A stretch of 50,018 nt of DNA, from NCBI GenBank assembly GCA_017436915.1, contig JAFSCE010000003.1, forward strand, positions 1 to 50,018, given 5' to 3'. How positions within the stretch are numbered: the stretch's first letter is position 1; each line of letters begins with the position of its first letter. This document shows, piece after piece, positions 4,774 to 11,575 of the stretch. The DNA is from Clostridia bacterium (GTDB taxonomy: Bacteria > Bacillota > Clostridia > Oscillospirales > Acutalibacteraceae). The notes under the pieces were generated by a model. That model did no database searches, was not told the origin of the DNA, and saw nothing but the letters and a program-made list of their open reading frames with translations. The position numbers and the translations under genes were made by a program.

Positions 4774-5907
4774 GTGGTCTATTTGGATAACAGCGCAACA
4801 ACGGCTGTTTGCAAAGAAGCGGTTGAACAAATGACGCGCGTGATGACAGAGCAATACGGGAACCCCTCCTCCTTGCACACACTCGGGATTGATGCATGGC
4901 GCGAAATGACGAAAGCGCGTGCGGAGGTCGCGGCACTTGTGGGTGCGAAACCCGAGCAAATCGTGTTTACGAGCGGAGGCACTGAGGCGAACAATCTTGC
5001 TGTTTTGGGCAGTGCCGAGGCGAAAGCTCGTTCGCCGCACGTGGCGGTGACGACGGCTATTGAGCATCCGTCGGTTGCGGCGTGTTTTGATCGATTGGAA
5101 GCACAAGGGTGGACGGTGATCCGCGTGCAGCCAGAGGCGGACGGCACGATTTCGGCAGAAGCAATTGAGCGGGCGTGTACGCCGGATACCACCATCGTCA
5201 GCGTGATGACGGTTAACAACGAGACCGGTGCACACATGGATATTCCCGCTATTGTTACACGAGTGCGACGTGTTGCTCCGCGGGCGCTGATCCACACGGA
5301 CGCGGTGCAGGCCGCGGGGAAATTACCCATTCGTGCAGAAAAGTGGGGTGTGGATCTGCTTTCGGTCAGTGGTCACAAGCTGCACGGACCGAAGGGTGTC
5401 GGTGCGTTGTATATTCGTAAGGGCGTGCGCGTACTGCCTCGCGTTCTCGGCGGTGGGCAGGAGGGCGGCTTGCGCTCCGGAACCGAGCCGACGCCCGCGA
5501 TCGTCGGGTTTGGCGCGGCGGCCGCCGCACTGCCGAAGTTCTCCGAGCAGGCGGCTCACTACGAGCGGCTTAAGGCGTGTTTATTGGAAGAACTCGGTAC
5601 GCATCCTGACGTGCGGTTTCATTTGCCGCAGGGTGGCGTGCCGTATATCGTGAATTTGTCGCTGAACGGTTTTCGCAGCGAAACGGTACTTCATTTTTTG
5701 GCACAGCGAGGTATTTTCGTATCCAGTGGGTCGGCTTGTGCAAAAGGTGAGCCGAGTGCGGTGCTGACGGCGATGGGGCTGTCATCTGACGAGATCGACA
5801 GTTCATTGCGTGTGAGCTTTTGCCGTGACAATACGGAAGAGGACGTTCACGCGCTGTGCGCGGCGCTGCGCGAAGCGGCAAACTCCTTACAAAGGAGACA
5901 CGGCTGA
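4774..5907 (+). CDS. Cysteine desulfurase (NifS/IscS family)
   Basis: A pyridoxal-phosphate enzyme that takes sulfur from cysteine as an enzyme-bound persulfide. The 377-residue protein starts with the family hallmark VYLDNSATT. It has the cofactor lysine in SVSGHKLHGPKG and the active-site cysteine in the loop SSGSACAKGEPS near residue 325. A GTG start at 4774 follows a strong GGAGAGGAGAGGGG. ThiI is two genes downstream, so I infer that it supplies sulfur for tRNA 4-thiouridine, like the NifZ-ThiI pair of Bacillus subtilis. No iscU or suf genes are near. Its stop overlaps the sortase start (TGATG), which indicates coupled translation. Confidence 0.9.
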   Translation: MVYLDNSATTAVCKEAVEQMTRVMTEQYGNPSSLHTLGIDAWREMTKARAEVAALVGAKPEQIVFTSGGTEANNLAVLGSAEAKARSPHVAVTTAIEHPSVAACFDRLEAQGWTVIRVQPEADGTISAEAIERACTPDTTIVSVMTVNNETGAHMDIPAIVTRVRRVAPRALIHTDAVQAAGKLPIRAEKWGVDLLSVSGHKLHGPKGVGALYIRKGVRVLPRVLGGGQEGGLRSGTEPTPAIVGFGAAAAALPKFSEQAAHYERLKACLLEELGTHPDVRFHLPQGGVPYIVNLSLNGFRSETVLHFLAQRGIFVSSGSACAKGEPSAVLTAMGLSSDEIDSSLRVSFCRDNTEEDVHALCAALREAANSLQRRHG

Positions 5908-6911
5908 TGAAAGATTGGTTCAAAAAGGTTGGCCGAGGCATCGTTCGCGCGCTGTCATCGGTGATTCCGGTGGCGGGTGATTCAAAGCAGGAATGGCTTC
6001 GCAAGATCGCGTTTTTGTTGGCAGTGTTTGTGTTTATCGGGTCAGTGGCATATTTAATAGACGATATGGTGCTGCAACCTCGTCATACGCAGGCGGTTGC
6101 GGACACGCTGCGTGATCTGTATTACACAGATTCTTTGGAGGATCCCGAAGCGAATGAAGATACTACCGTGTATCCCGAGGGAATGCTGGACGCGTTTCGT
6201 TCGCTGTATCGGCGAAATGCCGACGTGCGCGGATGGCTGACTTTTGCAACACAAGGCGAGGATCTGTTTGGTGGGGCGATCGACAACCCCGTGATGCAGA
6301 CGGTAGATAACGACTATTACCTTACACACGATTTTTTACACGACATCGACAAAGCGGGATCGCTATATTTTGATTATCGCAACGACTTATCGGCAGTTGG
6401 CGAGAACCGCAATTTGATCATATACGGGCACAATTTGAAAAGTGGACTGATGTTTTCTCGTTTTAATTTGCTTTCGAAAGGAACCTTGTTCCGCGCTCGA
6501 AAGTTGACGACTCTCACGCTTTCCACTTTATATGAGCAACGTACCTACAAGGTGTTTGCGGTGATGATCGTTAATGCGAACGCCGAGGAGGAACCGATAT
6601 TTAACTATATCCGCACGCAGTTTACCGACGAGGAGTTTGCGCAGTTTATTGACGACGTGCGCAGCCGTTCGTTGTACGATTTCGGTGACGTGGACGTGAC
6701 TGCCGAGGACGAGATTCTCACACTTTCCACGTGCAGTAACCCGCGTGAGACGCATTTGAAGGACGGGCGTACGGTCATTGTGGCACGAAAGCTCCGTGAG
6801 GGAGAGGATCCAACGGTGGATACCGCCAAAACGGTCCTCAACGAGGACGTGCTGATGCCGAAAACGTGGTACGTTGCACAGGATCTGGAGTTGCCTGAGA
6901 TATATCAGTAA
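5907..6911 (+). CDS. Class B-like sortase, catalytic triad intact
   Basis: This 334-residue membrane-anchored transpeptidase has one N-terminal membrane helix (about residues 34-55) and an extracellular sortase domain. The triad is present: His175 (IIYGHNL), Cys276 (TLSTCSN) and Arg288 (GRTVIVARKL). Sortases cleave a sorting signal and join proteins to the cell wall or to pilins; no substrate with a clear signal is in this window. AAAGGAG precedes ATG 5907, which overlaps the nifS stop. Its presence between two sulfur-transfer genes is unusual. The second sortase-like domain in the operon (inside the gene at 8111) is a clear paralogue, sharing NADVRGW/NDDVRGW and TYKVFAV/TYKIFAV, but lacks the His and Cys. 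Confidence 0.88.
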   Translation: MKDWFKKVGRGIVRALSSVIPVAGDSKQEWLRKIAFLLAVFVFIGSVAYLIDDMVLQPRHTQAVADTLRDLYYTDSLEDPEANEDTTVYPEGMLDAFRSLYRRNADVRGWLTFATQGEDLFGGAIDNPVMQTVDNDYYLTHDFLHDIDKAGSLYFDYRNDLSAVGENRNLIIYGHNLKSGLMFSRFNLLSKGTLFRARKLTTLTLSTLYEQRTYKVFAVMIVNANAEEEPIFNYIRTQFTDEEFAQFIDDVRSRSLYDFGDVDVTAEDEILTLSTCSNPRETHLKDGRTVIVARKLREGEDPTVDTAKTVLNEDVLMPKTWYVAQDLELPEIYQ

Positions 6912-6925
6912 AAAGGAACGTTGGT

Positions 6926-8092
6926 ATGAACGAAGTTATTCTTATTAAAAACGGGGAGTTGGCGCTCAAGGGGCTCAATCGCGGCACCTTTGAGGAGGCG
7001 CTCTTAAAAAATCTGCGTTATCGCTTAAAATCACTGGGTAGTTTTACACTGCGCAAGGCCCAATCGACCGTGTATATTGAGCCGCAGGATGAGGACGTGG
7101 ATTGGGATGAGGTCAGCGAGCGAGTAGCAACCGTGTTCGGCATTTCCGCGTTTTCCCGCGCGTGCGTGGTGGAAAAGGATCTGGACGCGATCAAAGCGGC
7201 GGCGGCAACCTATCTGGAACAGTCGTTATCCGAGGCACGGACCTTTAAAGTGGAGGCAAAACGCGCGGACAAGCGATTCCCGCTGACGTCGCCCGAGATC
7301 TGTGCCGCTGTCGGCGGGTACTTGTTGGAAAAGAATCCGCACCTAACGGTGGACGTGCACGAGCCCGAAATGACGGTGTGGGTGGAGATCCGCGATTTTG
7401 CGGCGTATATCCACGGCCCGCAGCTGCCCGGAGCGGGCGGTATGCCGGTGGGTACCGGCGGGAAAGCCGGAATACTCATTTCCGGCGGCATTGATTCGCC
7501 GGTGGCGGCGTACATGATGGCGAAGCGCGGTATTCAACTGACCGGTATTCATTTCGCCTCGCCTCCGTACACCAGTGAGCGAGCGGAGATGAAGGTCATA
7601 TCGCTGCTCGAAAAGGTTGGAGTCTATGCCGGACGTATGACATTGCACATCGTACCGTTTACCCATATTCAAGAGGAGATCGGACGCGCGTGTCCCGAAG
7701 AACTGTTTACGTTGATCATGCGGCGGTTTATGATGCGCATCGCGACACGAATCGCAAAAAGCACAGAGTGCGGCGCGCTGATTACCGGTGAAAGTGTCGG
7801 GCAGGTTGCCAGTCAGACCATTCCGGCGCTTGGCGTTACCGATGCGGTCGCCGATCTGCCGGTATTTCGTCCCGTGATCGGGATGGATAAGGAAGAGATC
7901 ATCGCGATCGCGCGGCGGATCGATACCTTTGAAACGTCTATTCAACCCTATGAAGATTGTTGCACGGTTTTCACGCCAAGGCATCCGCGTACCCGCCCCC
8001 GTATTGATGAAGTGGAAGCGGCAGAGCGGGCTTTGGCGGTGGAAGAACTGATTGAAGAAGCGATTGCAGGAGTACGGCTGATACACATCTGA
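6926..8092 (+). CDS. thiI: tRNA uridine 4-sulfurtransferase ThiI
   Basis: ThiI activates U8 of tRNA with ATP and transfers sulfur to make 4-thiouridine. The 388-residue protein has the N-terminal ferredoxin-like/THUMP region (about 1-165) and a PP-loop ATPase domain with ISGGIDSPVAAYMM near residue 185. It lacks the C-terminal rhodanese extension of the enterobacterial enzyme, as is normal in Bacillota, so sulfur must come directly from a desulfurase, presumably the one encoded at 4774. It starts 14 bases after the sortase gene. Confidence 0.95.
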   Translation: MNEVILIKNGELALKGLNRGTFEEALLKNLRYRLKSLGSFTLRKAQSTVYIEPQDEDVDWDEVSERVATVFGISAFSRACVVEKDLDAIKAAAATYLEQSLSEARTFKVEAKRADKRFPLTSPEICAAVGGYLLEKNPHLTVDVHEPEMTVWVEIRDFAAYIHGPQLPGAGGMPVGTGGKAGILISGGIDSPVAAYMMAKRGIQLTGIHFASPPYTSERAEMKVISLLEKVGVYAGRMTLHIVPFTHIQEEIGRACPEELFTLIMRRFMMRIATRIAKSTECGALITGESVGQVASQTIPALGVTDAVADLPVFRPVIGMDKEEIIAIARRIDTFETSIQPYEDCCTVFTPRHPRTRPRIDEVEAAERALAVEELIEEAIAGVRLIHI

Positions 8093-8110
8093 TGAAAGGT
8101 GGCGAAACCG

Positions 8111-11100
8111 ATGAATGCGGAAATTATTTCGGTGGGAACAGAATTGCTGCTCGGGGATATCGTTAACTCGAACAGTCAGTTTTTAGCGCGTGAGCTGGCG
8201 GCTTATGGGATAGATACCCTGTACCAGTCTACCGTTGGTGACAACCGAGAGCGTTTGCAGCAGGCGATGGAGCTGGCGCTGTCCCGTTGTGAGATGGTCA
8301 TTCTGACAGGAGGACTCGGTCCGACAGAAGATGATCTGACCAGAGAAACGGTGGCTGAGTGTTTGGGGCTTCCGCTCGTGCTTCACGAGGAGAGTGACCG
8401 CCGCATTCGCGCTTATTTTGAGCGCACCGGTAAGGAGTACACCGAAAACAATAAAAAACAAGCGATGTTGCCTGAAGGATGCATCGTGTTTCCGAACGAT
8501 CACGGTACGGCACCCGGTTGCGCTATTGAGCAGGAGGCGCACCGTGTGGTGATGTTGCCCGGCCCGCCGAGAGAACTTGTTCCGATGTTCTTTGAGCACG
8601 TTGCACCGTATTTAACGCGCTGTTCCGGCGGCACGATCCACTCCCATACGGTAGGGGTGTTCGGTATTCCGGAGGCGGCTGTGGACGAGCGGCTGCAGGA
8701 TTTGATGGAATCCACTAACCCGACTGTGGCGCCTTATGCCAAGGACGGCGAGGTGGTGTTGCGCATTACCGCGAAAGCTGACACGACTACGGAAGCAAAC
8801 GCGTTGTGCGATCCCGTTATTGCGGAGATTCGTGAACGGCTTGGCAACGCCGTGTACGGTGTGGATGCGGGAGGACTTGCCAAGCGGGTGGTAACGCTGC
8901 TTACCGAAAAAGAAATGAAGATTGCAACGGCGGAGTCCTGCACGGCAGGGTTGCTTTCCGGACGCCTTACGGAGGTGCCGGGTGTTTCCGCTGTGTTTGA
9001 ATGTGGTATTGCCGCGTATTCTAAGGAGATCAAGCATCAAATGCTTGGCGTCCCGGAATCTATTTTGGAACAGCGCGGCGCGGTTTCTCCCGAAACGGCA
9101 GGAGCCATGGCGGTTGGTGCGCGGCGCGCCGGCGGTGCGGATATCGGTATCGGTATTACCGGTGTGGCAGGCCCTGATACCAGCGAGGGAAAAGCCGTCG
9201 GTACGGTGTACGTAGCGCTTGCCGACGAAAAGCGAGTATGGGTAAAAAAGGTGTTTGCCGGTCACGGTGATGAGGATCGGGAATACATTCGCAATATGGC
9301 AACGTTGTATGCCCTGGATATGTCACGTCGGTATTTGGAAGCGTTACCGGGTGTGATGGCTGGCGGTCAATCGCTGGAACAAATGCAACAAGAGGTCTTG
9401 GCACTGACAAAAGAACAGAATGCCGTGGCAAAAAAACGCCGCCGTCGTTCGCTGCTGTTGCGGTGGATGTCGGCACTGGCGGCGCTGCTTTTAGTGGTTT
9501 CATTCTGGGGATATGTCTACGTGTACGTCCCATACTATAACCAAAAAAAATACGATGAGCTTTACCAAATGTATACCCAAGCCGAGGTGGAAACTGAGGG
9601 GTGGTATCCAAACGGTATCTTAACGCAGTTTATGACGCTGTACCGCAACAACGACGACGTGCGTGGTTGGGTGCGGATTGAGGATACGCGCATCAACTAT
9701 CCCGTCGTGCTGGAGCCGTCGCTCGGTTACTACGAACAACACGACTTTCACAAAAACTCTTCCTCGTACGGAGTGCCGTATTTGCAGACCGGTACGCAGG
9801 TGGAGCAGGAGAACATCAAACGCACTTTGACGATCTATGGGAATAACGTTGGGAACCGTCAGATGTTTTCACAACTCGAAGAGTATACCGAGCTTAGCTT
9901 TTTGAAAGAACACCCCACGATTGAGATGAACACCATCTATCAGGAGGGAACGTACAAGATCTTTGCAGTGTTGTTAGTGGACGATACGGACAAAGACGAG
10001 TACAATTATGCGCGCACCGCGTTTGAGGATGAAGAAGAGTTTATCTATCACGTAACGCAGTTGCGTGTGCGTTCGTTATTTGATACGCCGGTTGACATTG
10101 TGGAGGGCGATAGTCTGCTCTTGCTCACGACGCCGATCGACTACGGATACGACGGCGCGCGTGTGGTGGTAGCAGCGCGTCGCGTGCGGACAGGAGAGGA
10201 CAAGGAAAACGATCTTTCCAAATCGAGAGTGAATCGCGCACCCAAAATGCCGAAAGGATGGGTGGAGGCAAATGGTGGGAATACGGTCAATTCTACCGTC
10301 ACCACGGTAGAAACTACCGAAATCACGACCGAGCAAACCACGACCACCGAGAAAGTCACTACAACGACCCAAAAAACGACGACAACCACTACCAAAAAAG
10401 CGACGACAACCACTACCAAAAAAACGACGACTACTACTCATACGGAAGGTAATGAGTTGATTGGTGAAACCACCGCCCAGCAAACAACGACCGTACCAAC
10501 CACGCAGGTGGTCACGAAGCCGCCGTCTTCGGATGAGACGCCGTCCCCCGTAGTTCCCAGCGAAGGAACGGTGCAAGGTACGATCTCGGAATACGATTTT
10601 ATGTCGTACATTGCCGTGAAAAACAGCGGTGCGTTTTCCGGGTTTGCACCGGATGCTGATGGCATCTTGCGCCCGAAGAACAAAGAGCAACTGCAATTGT
10701 TGATTGCCGGTATTGTTAAATCCGAACTTGGCAGCGCCAGCACGATGGTTAACTCCACCGAGGCACAAAAAGCACAGGCGGTAGCGTCCTATTCTTATTT
10801 GTTGCACTACAATACGCACTCGGGCGCTTATCCGGCCAGCGTATCGGCAATTAATTTGAGTAACAAGTGGGATAAAAAGATCTACGATGCCGTTGGTGAC
10901 GTGGTGGGCGTTAAGCTGGTAGATACTGCGAAGACATCCATCCCGGCCATGACCTTGCAGACGGTGTATTCCGCCTCTACCGGCGGTTACAGTGCTTCCA
11001 GTAACCGCGTGTGGACGGGAGTGCTCCCGTATGCCAAGAGTGTGGTCAGTCAGTATGACGATGCCATTACCAACGCGAAATATGGCGGCAGAAAGTACGT

Positions 11101-11575
11101 TGCTACAGTTACGATAACTCGCGACGAATTGTACCAAAAAGTAAAAGACTGGGTTAGTGCGAAATCTACGAGCTATTCAATGCCGGAGGAGCAATTTACC
11201 ACCGCAGCGGGACAAGTCCCGCTTAGAGCGCTCAGCTACGACGGAGATGGCAGTGCGGGTACGGGCGATGCGTGGAACTACGTGTTCCATACCAATTTTT
11301 ATTACGTGAACGGTAGAGGACAACAAATACCGTTGACCGGATACAATATGCGTAACATACTGGGACTTCGTTCTCATGCGTTCCGCACCACGTATGACGA
11401 GGCGACGCAAACGGTGACCATTACAACACAAGGTTGGGGTCACGGTGTCGGACTTAGTCAGATGGGGGCGGTCGGTTATGCGAACGAGGCGGGTTGGAAC
11501 TACGTTCAGATCCTGCGCCATTATTATTCCGTAACGGATACCAGCACACACCAAATTGTTATGCCCGTTTGGTAA
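8111..11575 (+). CDS. Fusion: CinA - membrane helix - inactive sortase - Thr linker - SpoIID
   Basis: One open frame of 1154 codons joins unrelated parts. Residues 1-415 are a full CinA: a MoaB-like domain (VGTELLLGDIVNSN, LTGGLGPTEDDLTRE) and a C-terminal NMN amidohydrolase domain (ATAESCTAGLLSG, GITGVAGP). A KKRRRR patch and a membrane helix (about 447-473) follow. The sortase B-like domain (about 490-700) has Asn578 where His is needed and Thr674 where Cys is needed, while Arg684 remains. A Thr-rich linker (about 723-815) leads to a SpoIID/LytB domain (about 855-1154) with the putative catalytic Glu872 (VKSELGS) and GWGHGVGLSQMGA. Topology is consistent: CinA inside, the rest outside. SpoIID proteins are glycan-strand lytic enzymes. 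Start 8111 is set by AAAGGTGG. A TGATG overlap in the +1 frame at 9354-9358 hints that two coupled genes may have fused recently, or that a single-base error joined them. Confidence 0.85.
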   Translation: MNAEIISVGTELLLGDIVNSNSQFLARELAAYGIDTLYQSTVGDNRERLQQAMELALSRCEMVILTGGLGPTEDDLTRETVAECLGLPLVLHEESDRRIRAYFERTGKEYTENNKKQAMLPEGCIVFPNDHGTAPGCAIEQEAHRVVMLPGPPRELVPMFFEHVAPYLTRCSGGTIHSHTVGVFGIPEAAVDERLQDLMESTNPTVAPYAKDGEVVLRITAKADTTTEANALCDPVIAEIRERLGNAVYGVDAGGLAKRVVTLLTEKEMKIATAESCTAGLLSGRLTEVPGVSAVFECGIAAYSKEIKHQMLGVPESILEQRGAVSPETAGAMAVGARRAGGADIGIGITGVAGPDTSEGKAVGTVYVALADEKRVWVKKVFAGHGDEDREYIRNMATLYALDMSRRYLEALPGVMAGGQSLEQMQQEVLALTKEQNAVAKKRRRRSLLLRWMSALAALLLVVSFWGYVYVYVPYYNQKKYDELYQMYTQAEVETEGWYPNGILTQFMTLYRNNDDVRGWVRIEDTRINYPVVLEPSLGYYEQHDFHKNSSSYGVPYLQTGTQVEQENIKRTLTIYGNNVGNRQMFSQLEEYTELSFLKEHPTIEMNTIYQEGTYKIFAVLLVDDTDKDEYNYARTAFEDEEEFIYHVTQLRVRSLFDTPVDIVEGDSLLLLTTPIDYGYDGARVVVAARRVRTGEDKENDLSKSRVNRAPKMPKGWVEANGGNTVNSTVTTVETTEITTEQTTTTEKVTTTTQKTTTTTTKKATTTTTKKTTTTTHTEGNELIGETTAQQTTTVPTTQVVTKPPSSDETPSPVVPSEGTVQGTISEYDFMSYIAVKNSGAFSGFAPDADGILRPKNKEQLQLLIAGIVKSELGSASTMVNSTEAQKAQAVASYSYLLHYNTHSGAYPASVSAINLSNKWDKKIYDAVGDVVGVKLVDTAKTSIPAMTLQTVYSASTGGYSASSNRVWTGVLPYAKSVVSQYDDAITNAKYGGRKYVATVTITRDELYQKVKDWVSAKSTSYSMPEEQFTTAAGQVPLRALSYDGDGSAGTGDAWNYVFHTNFYYVNGRGQQIPLTGYNMRNILGLRSHAFRTTYDEATQTVTITTQGWGHGVGLSQMGAVGYANEAGWNYVQILRHYYSVTDTSTHQIVMPVW
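10371..10438 (+). repeat. 24-base tandem repeat coding the Thr/Lys linker
   Basis: Three consecutive units built on AAAAAACGACGACAACCACT plus ACC, the last one diverged, encode repeated TTTTTKK-type residues. They form the core of a Ser/Thr-rich spacer between the inactive sortase and SpoIID domains. Such spacers usually span the cell wall; unit number may vary by slippage. Confidence 0.75.

Follow-up and report, generated by a model that had tools for sequence, protein, structure and literature searches.

The stretch of DNA analysed here (the window, 50,018 nucleotides of a Clostridia bacterium) raises the question of what a CinA protein is doing in one chain with a sortase that lacks the catalytic His and Cys and with a SpoIID/LytB domain, and whether such a gene is genuine at all. 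The gene lies at 8111..11575 on the + strand and encodes, in this order, CinA, a membrane helix, a pseudosortase, a linker and SpoIID. The reading we favour, to which we give a probability of about 0.5, is that the fusion gene is real and conserved, and that its CinA part is an inner anchor or platform next to an intact-looking sortase. The architecture is observed directly; the partnership with the sortase and the scaffold function are what we infer.

The fused gene and its domains

A single open frame runs from ATG 8111 to the stop at 11575 and has 1154 codons plus the stop. GTG 8099 is merely the earliest possible start of the frame, and ATG 8111 was taken as the start; a ribosome-binding-site-like AAAGGTGG, read from the sequence at 8095..8102 (+), lies 8 bases 5' of it. 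All features of the gene given below are on the + strand. Pfam and NCBIfam place CinA at residues 1-410 of the protein, the sortase domain at about 454-687 and SpoIID/LytB at about 865-1143. Between CinA and the sortase domain, at 9431..9529, stand KKRRRR (residues 441-446; 9431-9448) and a hydrophobic stretch (residues 448-473), which hydropathy predicts to be a transmembrane helix (9452-9529) running from inside to outside. The chain is predicted to be a single-pass membrane protein with CinA inside and the pseudosortase and SpoIID outside. An earlier note on this DNA had described one 1154-codon frame with CinA, a basic helix, a dead sortase and SpoIID, which Pfam, NCBIfam, Foldseek and alignment confirm, and had called the topology (CinA in, KKRRRR and helix, remainder out) coherent, which holds as a prediction.

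The CinA part is full length: the NCBIfam equivalog NF001813 matches it with 513.5 bits, above the cut-off of 379. It consists of a COG1058/MoCF domain of the ADP-ribose pyrophosphatase type (8120..8617; Pfam PF00994) with E11, D44 and D75 kept, a KH-type domain (8642..8860; Pfam PF18146), and a PncC or nicotinamide mononucleotide (NMN) deamidase domain (8876..9334; Pfam PF02464) with Y303, K308, T350 and R390 kept. These residues were located via motif and PDB alignment. The Tyr, Lys, Thr and Arg of the NMN site are named from the Thermus CinA structure in passages of PMC4246079, and counterparts of the acidic triad of COG1058 are essential by mutagenesis according to passages of PMC3680494. 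A database search gave 338 relatives, the best 120 of which were used; three short rows (P0070, P0081 and P0087) were dropped, and the remaining 117 together with the query make up the 118 chains to which our conservation counts refer. The four NMN-deamidase residues are kept in 118/118, and E11, D44 and D75 in 111, 111 and 112, respectively. Judged by sequence, the CinA of the fusion looks fully active as an enzyme. The fusion chain is also the sole CinA match that the profile search found in the genome of the window, which can explain why the NMN-deamidase site is kept. In six triple fusions (P0110, P0111, P0113, P0114, P0118 and P0120) two or all three of the COG1058 acids have decayed, while the PncC residues and the SpoIID Glu are retained.

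The domain at 9602..10270 has a class B sortase fold by profiles, alignment and Foldseek. Its match to TIGR03064 (E 5.7e-31, 107.6 bits) is under the curated cut-off of 153.75. We compared an AlphaFold model of residues 471-1154 by Foldseek (mean predicted local distance difference test score, pLDDT, 70.3, falling to about 25 in the linker), and class B sortases come out on top (4lfd_A, E 1.9e-17; 5b23_A, TMt 0.91). In the window the catalytic His is replaced by N578 and the Cys by T674/P675; the Arg is retained as R684. The same holds among the relatives: 118/118 chains have N, S, A or K at the His position, Cys is absent from the sortase Cys column and from the adjacent column in all 118, and the Arg is retained in 104. 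Since no chain keeps either His or Cys, the domain is a pseudosortase and not a sortase enzyme, just as the earlier note had it. A live enzyme with a shifted Cys was also considered and is ruled out, neither column holding a Cys in any row.

A Thr-rich linker (10289..10570; 42 Thr in 94 residues), which has a dN/dS of 0.21 and evolves fast, leads to the SpoIID/LytB domain at 10658..11572, whose parts are in normal, not permuted, order. This domain passes the NCBIfam model TIGR02669 (88.8 bits, cut-off 83.3) and fails Pfam PF08486 (16.3, cut-off 23); Foldseek matches the model to SpoIID 5i1t_A with E 5.7e-12. E872 and the His of the GHG motif (GHGVGLSQ in the window) are kept in 118/118 chains. 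E101 is the catalytic Glu of C. difficile SpoIID in passages of PMC6221140, and E872 is indirectly identified as its counterpart: in the related SpoIID chain L053 the Glu of EAEMGS aligns, within a weak segment, to residue 77 of 5i1t, which is E101 by the offset to 5txu, and E872 has the same place in the motif. The domain would then be a SpoIID of the lytic transglycosylase type that has kept its catalytic site.

The distribution and divergence of the gene argue that it is genuine. The fusion is present in 8/8 other genomes searched from the same genus, in line with the conservation that the earlier note had asked about; in seven it is in one frame, with 61-92% identity. In the eighth (G003) the gene runs off the end of a contig, and a second contig, which has the rest of the gene, opens with a 97.5% identical copy of the final 241 bases of the first; this repeat at the contig ends indicates one gene split by assembly. 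Among the best 120 of the 338 relatives, 117 have at least 1000 residues and align across the whole architecture. In a CinA tree of 45 rows the SpoIID-bearing fusions (13 rows) form one clade with support of 100/99, whose two other members are a frame-broken copy (L043) and one that ends with its contig (L046). The break in L043 (6415-10019) is a frame change within the PncC part and may be a sequencing error or real.

Nei-Gojobori ratios of nonsynonymous to synonymous change (dN/dS) against the nearest relative, L034 (dS 0.5-1.0), are as follows: CinA 0.056, dead sortase 0.034, SpoIID 0.109 and linker 0.214. With L035, which is further away (dS 1.5-2.1), the values in the same order are 0.038, 0.053, 0.047 and 0.184. 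Comparisons with the four remaining genes were set aside, their dS being mostly saturated or nearly so. CinA, the dead sortase and SpoIID are all under purifying selection. Together with the conservation of residues this reveals that selection has maintained the sites of CinA and of the transglycosylase, and the sortase as a fold, though not the chemistry of the sortase. An alternative explanation is that two genes were joined by a recent accident, as the earlier note had suggested, or by an assembly error; it draws on the unusual combination alone. The 8/8 genomes, the single clade, the long relatives and the selection on the dead sortase refute it, and we consider it next to impossible. A picture in which all relatives have two separate genes and a one-base error near 9340-9356 joins them here is not what was found.

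Among 16 named matches of a genome scan, 9 have titles that point to a gut source (goat, buffalo, sheep, yak, water deer or horse); the rest are metagenome-assembled genomes labelled Clostridiales, Oscillospiraceae or Ruminococcaceae. The fusion-bearing bacterium probably lives in the gut.

The locus in the window and across the family

The gene order in the window, all on the + strand, is nifS - class B sortase - thiI - fusion. A nifS/iscS-type cysteine desulfurase (4774..5907; NCBIfam matches) is the first gene of this conserved block. It is followed by a separate class B sortase (5856..6911, with the likely true start at ATG 5907), in which His, Cys and Arg are intact, and by thiI (6926..8092; tRNA 4-thiouridine or thiamine sulfur transfer; Pfam ThiI, 225 bits). 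The separate sortase reaches 139.5 bits with TIGR03064, also under the cut-off of 153.75, and 42.5 with Pfam Sortase (cut-off 26.6); it and the dead domain, both in this locus, are the two TIGR03064 matches in the genome.

To see how general this arrangement is, we drew up 112 loci from the family: the window, 24 from a first search for relatives and 87 from 150 evenly sampled genomes (CinA match at E <= 1e-30 in 111, none in 39), other members of the genus of the window being left out. The loci were picked by a CinA/PncC match, so the presence of a CinA/PncC frame in 111 of them is by choice; one locus, L183, is a contig-end piece. Only genes that match a profile are listed, so that "next gene" passes over unmatched ones, and sortase residues were read from one alignment, where dashes in the residue codes stand for gaps or contig ends. 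Counted in this way, thiI is the listed gene immediately 5' of the CinA/PncC gene in 84 cases, and in most of the relatives, too, nifS precedes thiI. A sortase occurs in 79/112 loci and one with His and Cys in 68. CinA/PncC is fused to a sortase in 38 loci, 7 of them also with SpoIID, and in 40 further loci the listed gene that follows CinA/PncC is a sortase. PncC-sortase fusions that lack SpoIID have His, Cys and Arg intact in 22/31 cases (among the 9 exceptions are 4 frames at a contig end), and stand-alone sortases in 51/63. By these counts a fused gene most often has the form CinA - helix - intact sortase, which was not seen in the genus of the window. Outside the family, a sortase was found in 4 of 16 loci drawn up from the same order and a fusion in 3, which suggests that the association extends beyond the family and is rarer there.

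The fused state requires 8 changes on a quick tree of 97 rows, 3 of them forced by starred branches, which reveals that the fusion arose or was lost repeatedly. This could mean that adjacent, co-translated cinA and sortase genes merge again and again for convenience, sharing a chain without sharing a function, a notion that gains from the 40 unfused loci in which the partners adjoin as well as from the changes on the tree. It gains also from a motif: free sortases have a P-x-x-G-D-type motif just before the membrane helix (examples come from L055, L060, L042, L089, L051, L057 and the window sortase at 5856-6911), and 7/25 CinA-fused chains keep it in the free-sortase form P-[WF]-[KR]-G-D, which the fusion of the window lacks. 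A juxtamembrane motif common to free and fused sortases suggests that an entire sortase gene went into the fusion with cinA. We nevertheless consider a merger without shared function unlikely: it leaves unexplained the purifying selection on the dead sortase, and the decayed CinA copies on SpoIID chains described below, which always come with a sortase in the locus (38/38).

Where the sortase domain is fused to SpoIID, its His is lost in 20/21 cases, and a separate intact sortase is present in 18 of those 20 loci. All 35 loci with SpoIID have a sortase, against 44/77 of those without SpoIID. In one relative, P0151, CinA is combined with SpoIID and a very decayed sortase-like stretch, recognised partly by eye. 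In another locus, L071, it is the sortase between nifS and thiI that is itself dead, Asn having replaced the His and Gly the Cys (6967-8550).

The presence of SpoIID may suggest a part in sporulation, with the fusion as a SpoIID variant that acts in engulfment of the forespore. The domain has the catalytic Glu. The genome also yields three amidase matches and a match to Spo0A_C (E 9.2e-47); the latter is the reason we keep this possibility in view. We consider it improbable. A separate SpoIID above the Pfam cut-off is encoded elsewhere in the genome (contig C20), the fusion gene sits by nifS and thiI and not by sporulation genes, and its match to the equivalog spore_II_D is far under the cut-off (61 against 234.75). 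Moreover, no Spo0A_C match was found in 3 of 5 other genomes searched from the same genus, one of them 95% complete, in which the fusion is present.

Decayed CinA and a possible role of the CinA fold

In many relatives the adjacent SpoIID gene opens with about 160-400 residues ahead of the helix. Profile and model comparisons identify these N-terminal stretches as decayed CinA, presumed to lie on the cytoplasmic side. They were found by iteration of hidden Markov models and then checked by independent comparisons. Among ten such proteins the NCBIfam CinA model matches 4 at E <= 0.01 (4.2e-6 to 0.0074), and Pfam gives just one weak CinA match (E 0.012). Pairwise profile-profile comparison of one pseudo-CinA group gives E 1.9e-14 with COG1058 and 3.6e-10 with PncC; a second, short group (L053, L058, L065 and L073) gives 1.5e-12 with COG1058, the only part of CinA detected in it (E-values are for a single comparison). 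The best PDB match of an AlphaFold model of P0123 (mean pLDDT 74.5) is Thermus CinA 4ct8, with E 2.5e-12. A chance profile match is ruled out by the agreement between pairwise profiles and the structure model. By eye, the catalytic motifs are absent from the pseudo-CinA sequences.

The SpoIID chains of 35 loci divide into pseudo-CinA-SpoIID (12), pseudo-CinA-sortase-SpoIID (10), CinA-sortase-SpoIID (7), sortase-SpoIID (4) and SpoIID alone (2). SpoIID is thus tied to a live or decayed CinA fold in 29/35. Four chains without a scored CinA domain are L108, L115, L122 and L123, three of which resemble decayed COG1058 by eye; L115 does not. Loci with pseudo-CinA have a sortase in 38/38 cases, in 35 of them with His and Cys, and loci without pseudo-CinA in 41/74. 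The common denominators are the CinA fold, the helix, and SpoIID and/or the sortase fold, and an intact sortase is present in most such loci.

These observations bear on the possibility that the fusion is a metabolic sensor, in which turnover of NMN, ADP-ribose or nicotinamide adenine dinucleotide (NAD) at the live CinA alters the dimer and so switches cutting by the outer SpoIID. The conservation of the NMN-deamidase residues and of the COG1058 acids speaks for it, as does the asymmetric dimer with mobile domains that passages of PMC4246079 describe for Thermus CinA, and it may hold for the chain of the window, whose CinA sites are intact. However, related SpoIID chains carry CinA copies without these motifs, the six chains with decayed COG1058 acids have kept SpoIID, and the NMN site may be kept for the other reason given above, the fusion being the only CinA found in its genome. 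In related genera SpoIID is tied to motif-decayed CinA, which suggests that the fold, rather than the activity, is the common part. A sensor is therefore doubtful in our view; coupling of nucleotide-cofactor status to wall remodelling, as the earlier note had proposed, is possible, and the relatives with decayed CinA mean that it is not the simplest explanation.

A structural role is the most economical explanation for a CinA part that may be live or dead next to a SpoIID-linked sortase that is nearly always dead. The conservation of the fusion and the shuffling of the same parts within one conserved gene neighbourhood make the CinA fold a likely inner anchor. The steps that we infer begin with the assembly of CinA: this protein, dimeric in Thermus, would gather several copies of the chain beneath the membrane, or join live CinA with pseudo-CinA chains there. 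The platform would bring the transglycosylase to the active sortase at the membrane, where the dead sortase may act as a docking or substrate-holding module for that sortase or its substrates. SpoIID, given its reach by the Thr-rich linker, might trim glycan strands at the sites where surface proteins are attached. More tentatively, and at somewhat less than even odds, the CinA fold may be a transmembrane scaffold throughout a large Clostridia family, with live and dead CinA holding sortases, likewise live and dead, and SpoIID in an undescribed anchoring or remodelling machine.

Several observations weigh against the inner-anchor reading. A sortase was not seen in 33/112 family loci, some of them on short contigs, and the CinA-sortase partnership is accordingly not obligatory. 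P0070, a close relative of 709 residues, begins at the membrane helix and has no CinA in its chain; it may reflect a split gene, a frame break or an effect of gene calling. The model for LPXTG substrates of sortases finds only weak places in the genome (best E 0.004), with a threshold of E up to 10 that also gives matches in 14/14 control genomes. The SpoIID-linked sortase is not always dead: L129 combines a sortase that has His, Cys and Arg with a decayed-looking CinA and SpoIID, and P0144 and P0150, by eye, combine a decayed-looking CinA with a live-looking sortase and SpoIID. The match of P0123 to Thermus CinA has a low whole-chain template modelling score (0.35), since the two arrange their domains in different ways; compared one domain at a time, the score is about 0.6-0.7. 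Inheritance of the fused gene could by itself account for the CinA part, and the active-looking CinA of the window fits an enzyme or a sensor as well as a scaffold.

Known systems and further observations

Each domain belongs to a known family, save for the catalytically failed sortase, and we found no known kind into which the locus as a whole would fit. In its three domains and catalytic residues the CinA part is like the bifunctional CinA/PncC NMN deamidase-ADP-ribose pyrophosphatase (Thermus 4ct8), so far as passages of PMC4246079 and PMC3680494 describe it; the fusion adds the membrane helix and about 680 residues. The pseudosortase resembles class B sortases (S. aureus 4lfd/1ng5, C. difficile 4ux7) in its fold, its Arg and the preceding membrane helix, but its His and Cys are replaced and it is joined to CinA and SpoIID. 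The SpoIID part shares its fold, the position of the catalytic Glu and the GHGxG motif with C. difficile SpoIID/LytB (5i1t), as passages of PMC6221140 present it, but it is tethered by the linker to the pseudosortase and CinA and lies outside sporulation gene clusters. Fusion of CinA domains with other domains is mentioned as occasional, in general terms only, in passages of PMC3855486. The earlier note knew of no described protein with this combination, and we likewise found no description of the CinA-sortase-SpoIID architecture or locus in open PMC text.

The nearest parallel is in the way the system may work. According to passages of PMC10522489, gephyrin clusters glycine receptors, and corynebacterial Glp, of the MoeA type, forms a divisome scaffold with a membrane receptor (GlpR). 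In these systems a MoCF/MoeA-related fold organises membrane proteins, as we suppose it may here; they use soluble, receptor-bound proteins of the MoeA/MogA kind, whereas the fusion uses CinA in one covalent transmembrane chain. The NCBIfam model Glp_gephyrin matches residues 3-83 of the fusion weakly (29.9 against 475 bits). If the proposed role were correct, an enzyme of NAD recycling would be built covalently into a cell-wall machine, live and dead versions evolving in parallel, and would represent a bacterial counterpart to gephyrin derived from such an enzyme. A single tree on which the fused state changes 8 times offers a natural experiment on how enzyme folds become scaffolds, and the locus is a testable handle on the roles of class B sortases in uncultured Clostridia. 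With 38/111 CinA/PncC genes fused to a sortase, the label "competence/damage-inducible protein A" can conceal a membrane protein.

Genes that lie 3' of the fusion in the window are a DAHP-synthase-like gene and then frames that resemble, by eye, shikimate-pathway genes. Elsewhere in the genome one further sortase is found as a Pfam match on contig C16 (G000:C16, L092). It has about 237 residues and no match to a class B model, and beside it is a small protein that looks secreted and has a hydrophobic stretch and a basic tail at its C-terminus, by eye a possible substrate.

Among 36 SpoIID-bearing chains, 13 have a SpoIID that is circularly permuted by profile coordinates, the GHGxG part (profile about 235-290) standing ahead of the Glu/KAQA part (about 7-235). 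These chains are in L051, L052, L056, L057, L066, L133, L134, L137, L151, L153, L165, L173 and L188; L152 is probably a fourteenth. We found no description of a permuted SpoIID in open PMC text. A sortase domain was seen in none of the permuted chains. The chain of L056 (11734-13095) has a signal-like start and dockerin-like repeats by eye, and lies beside a sortase cluster.

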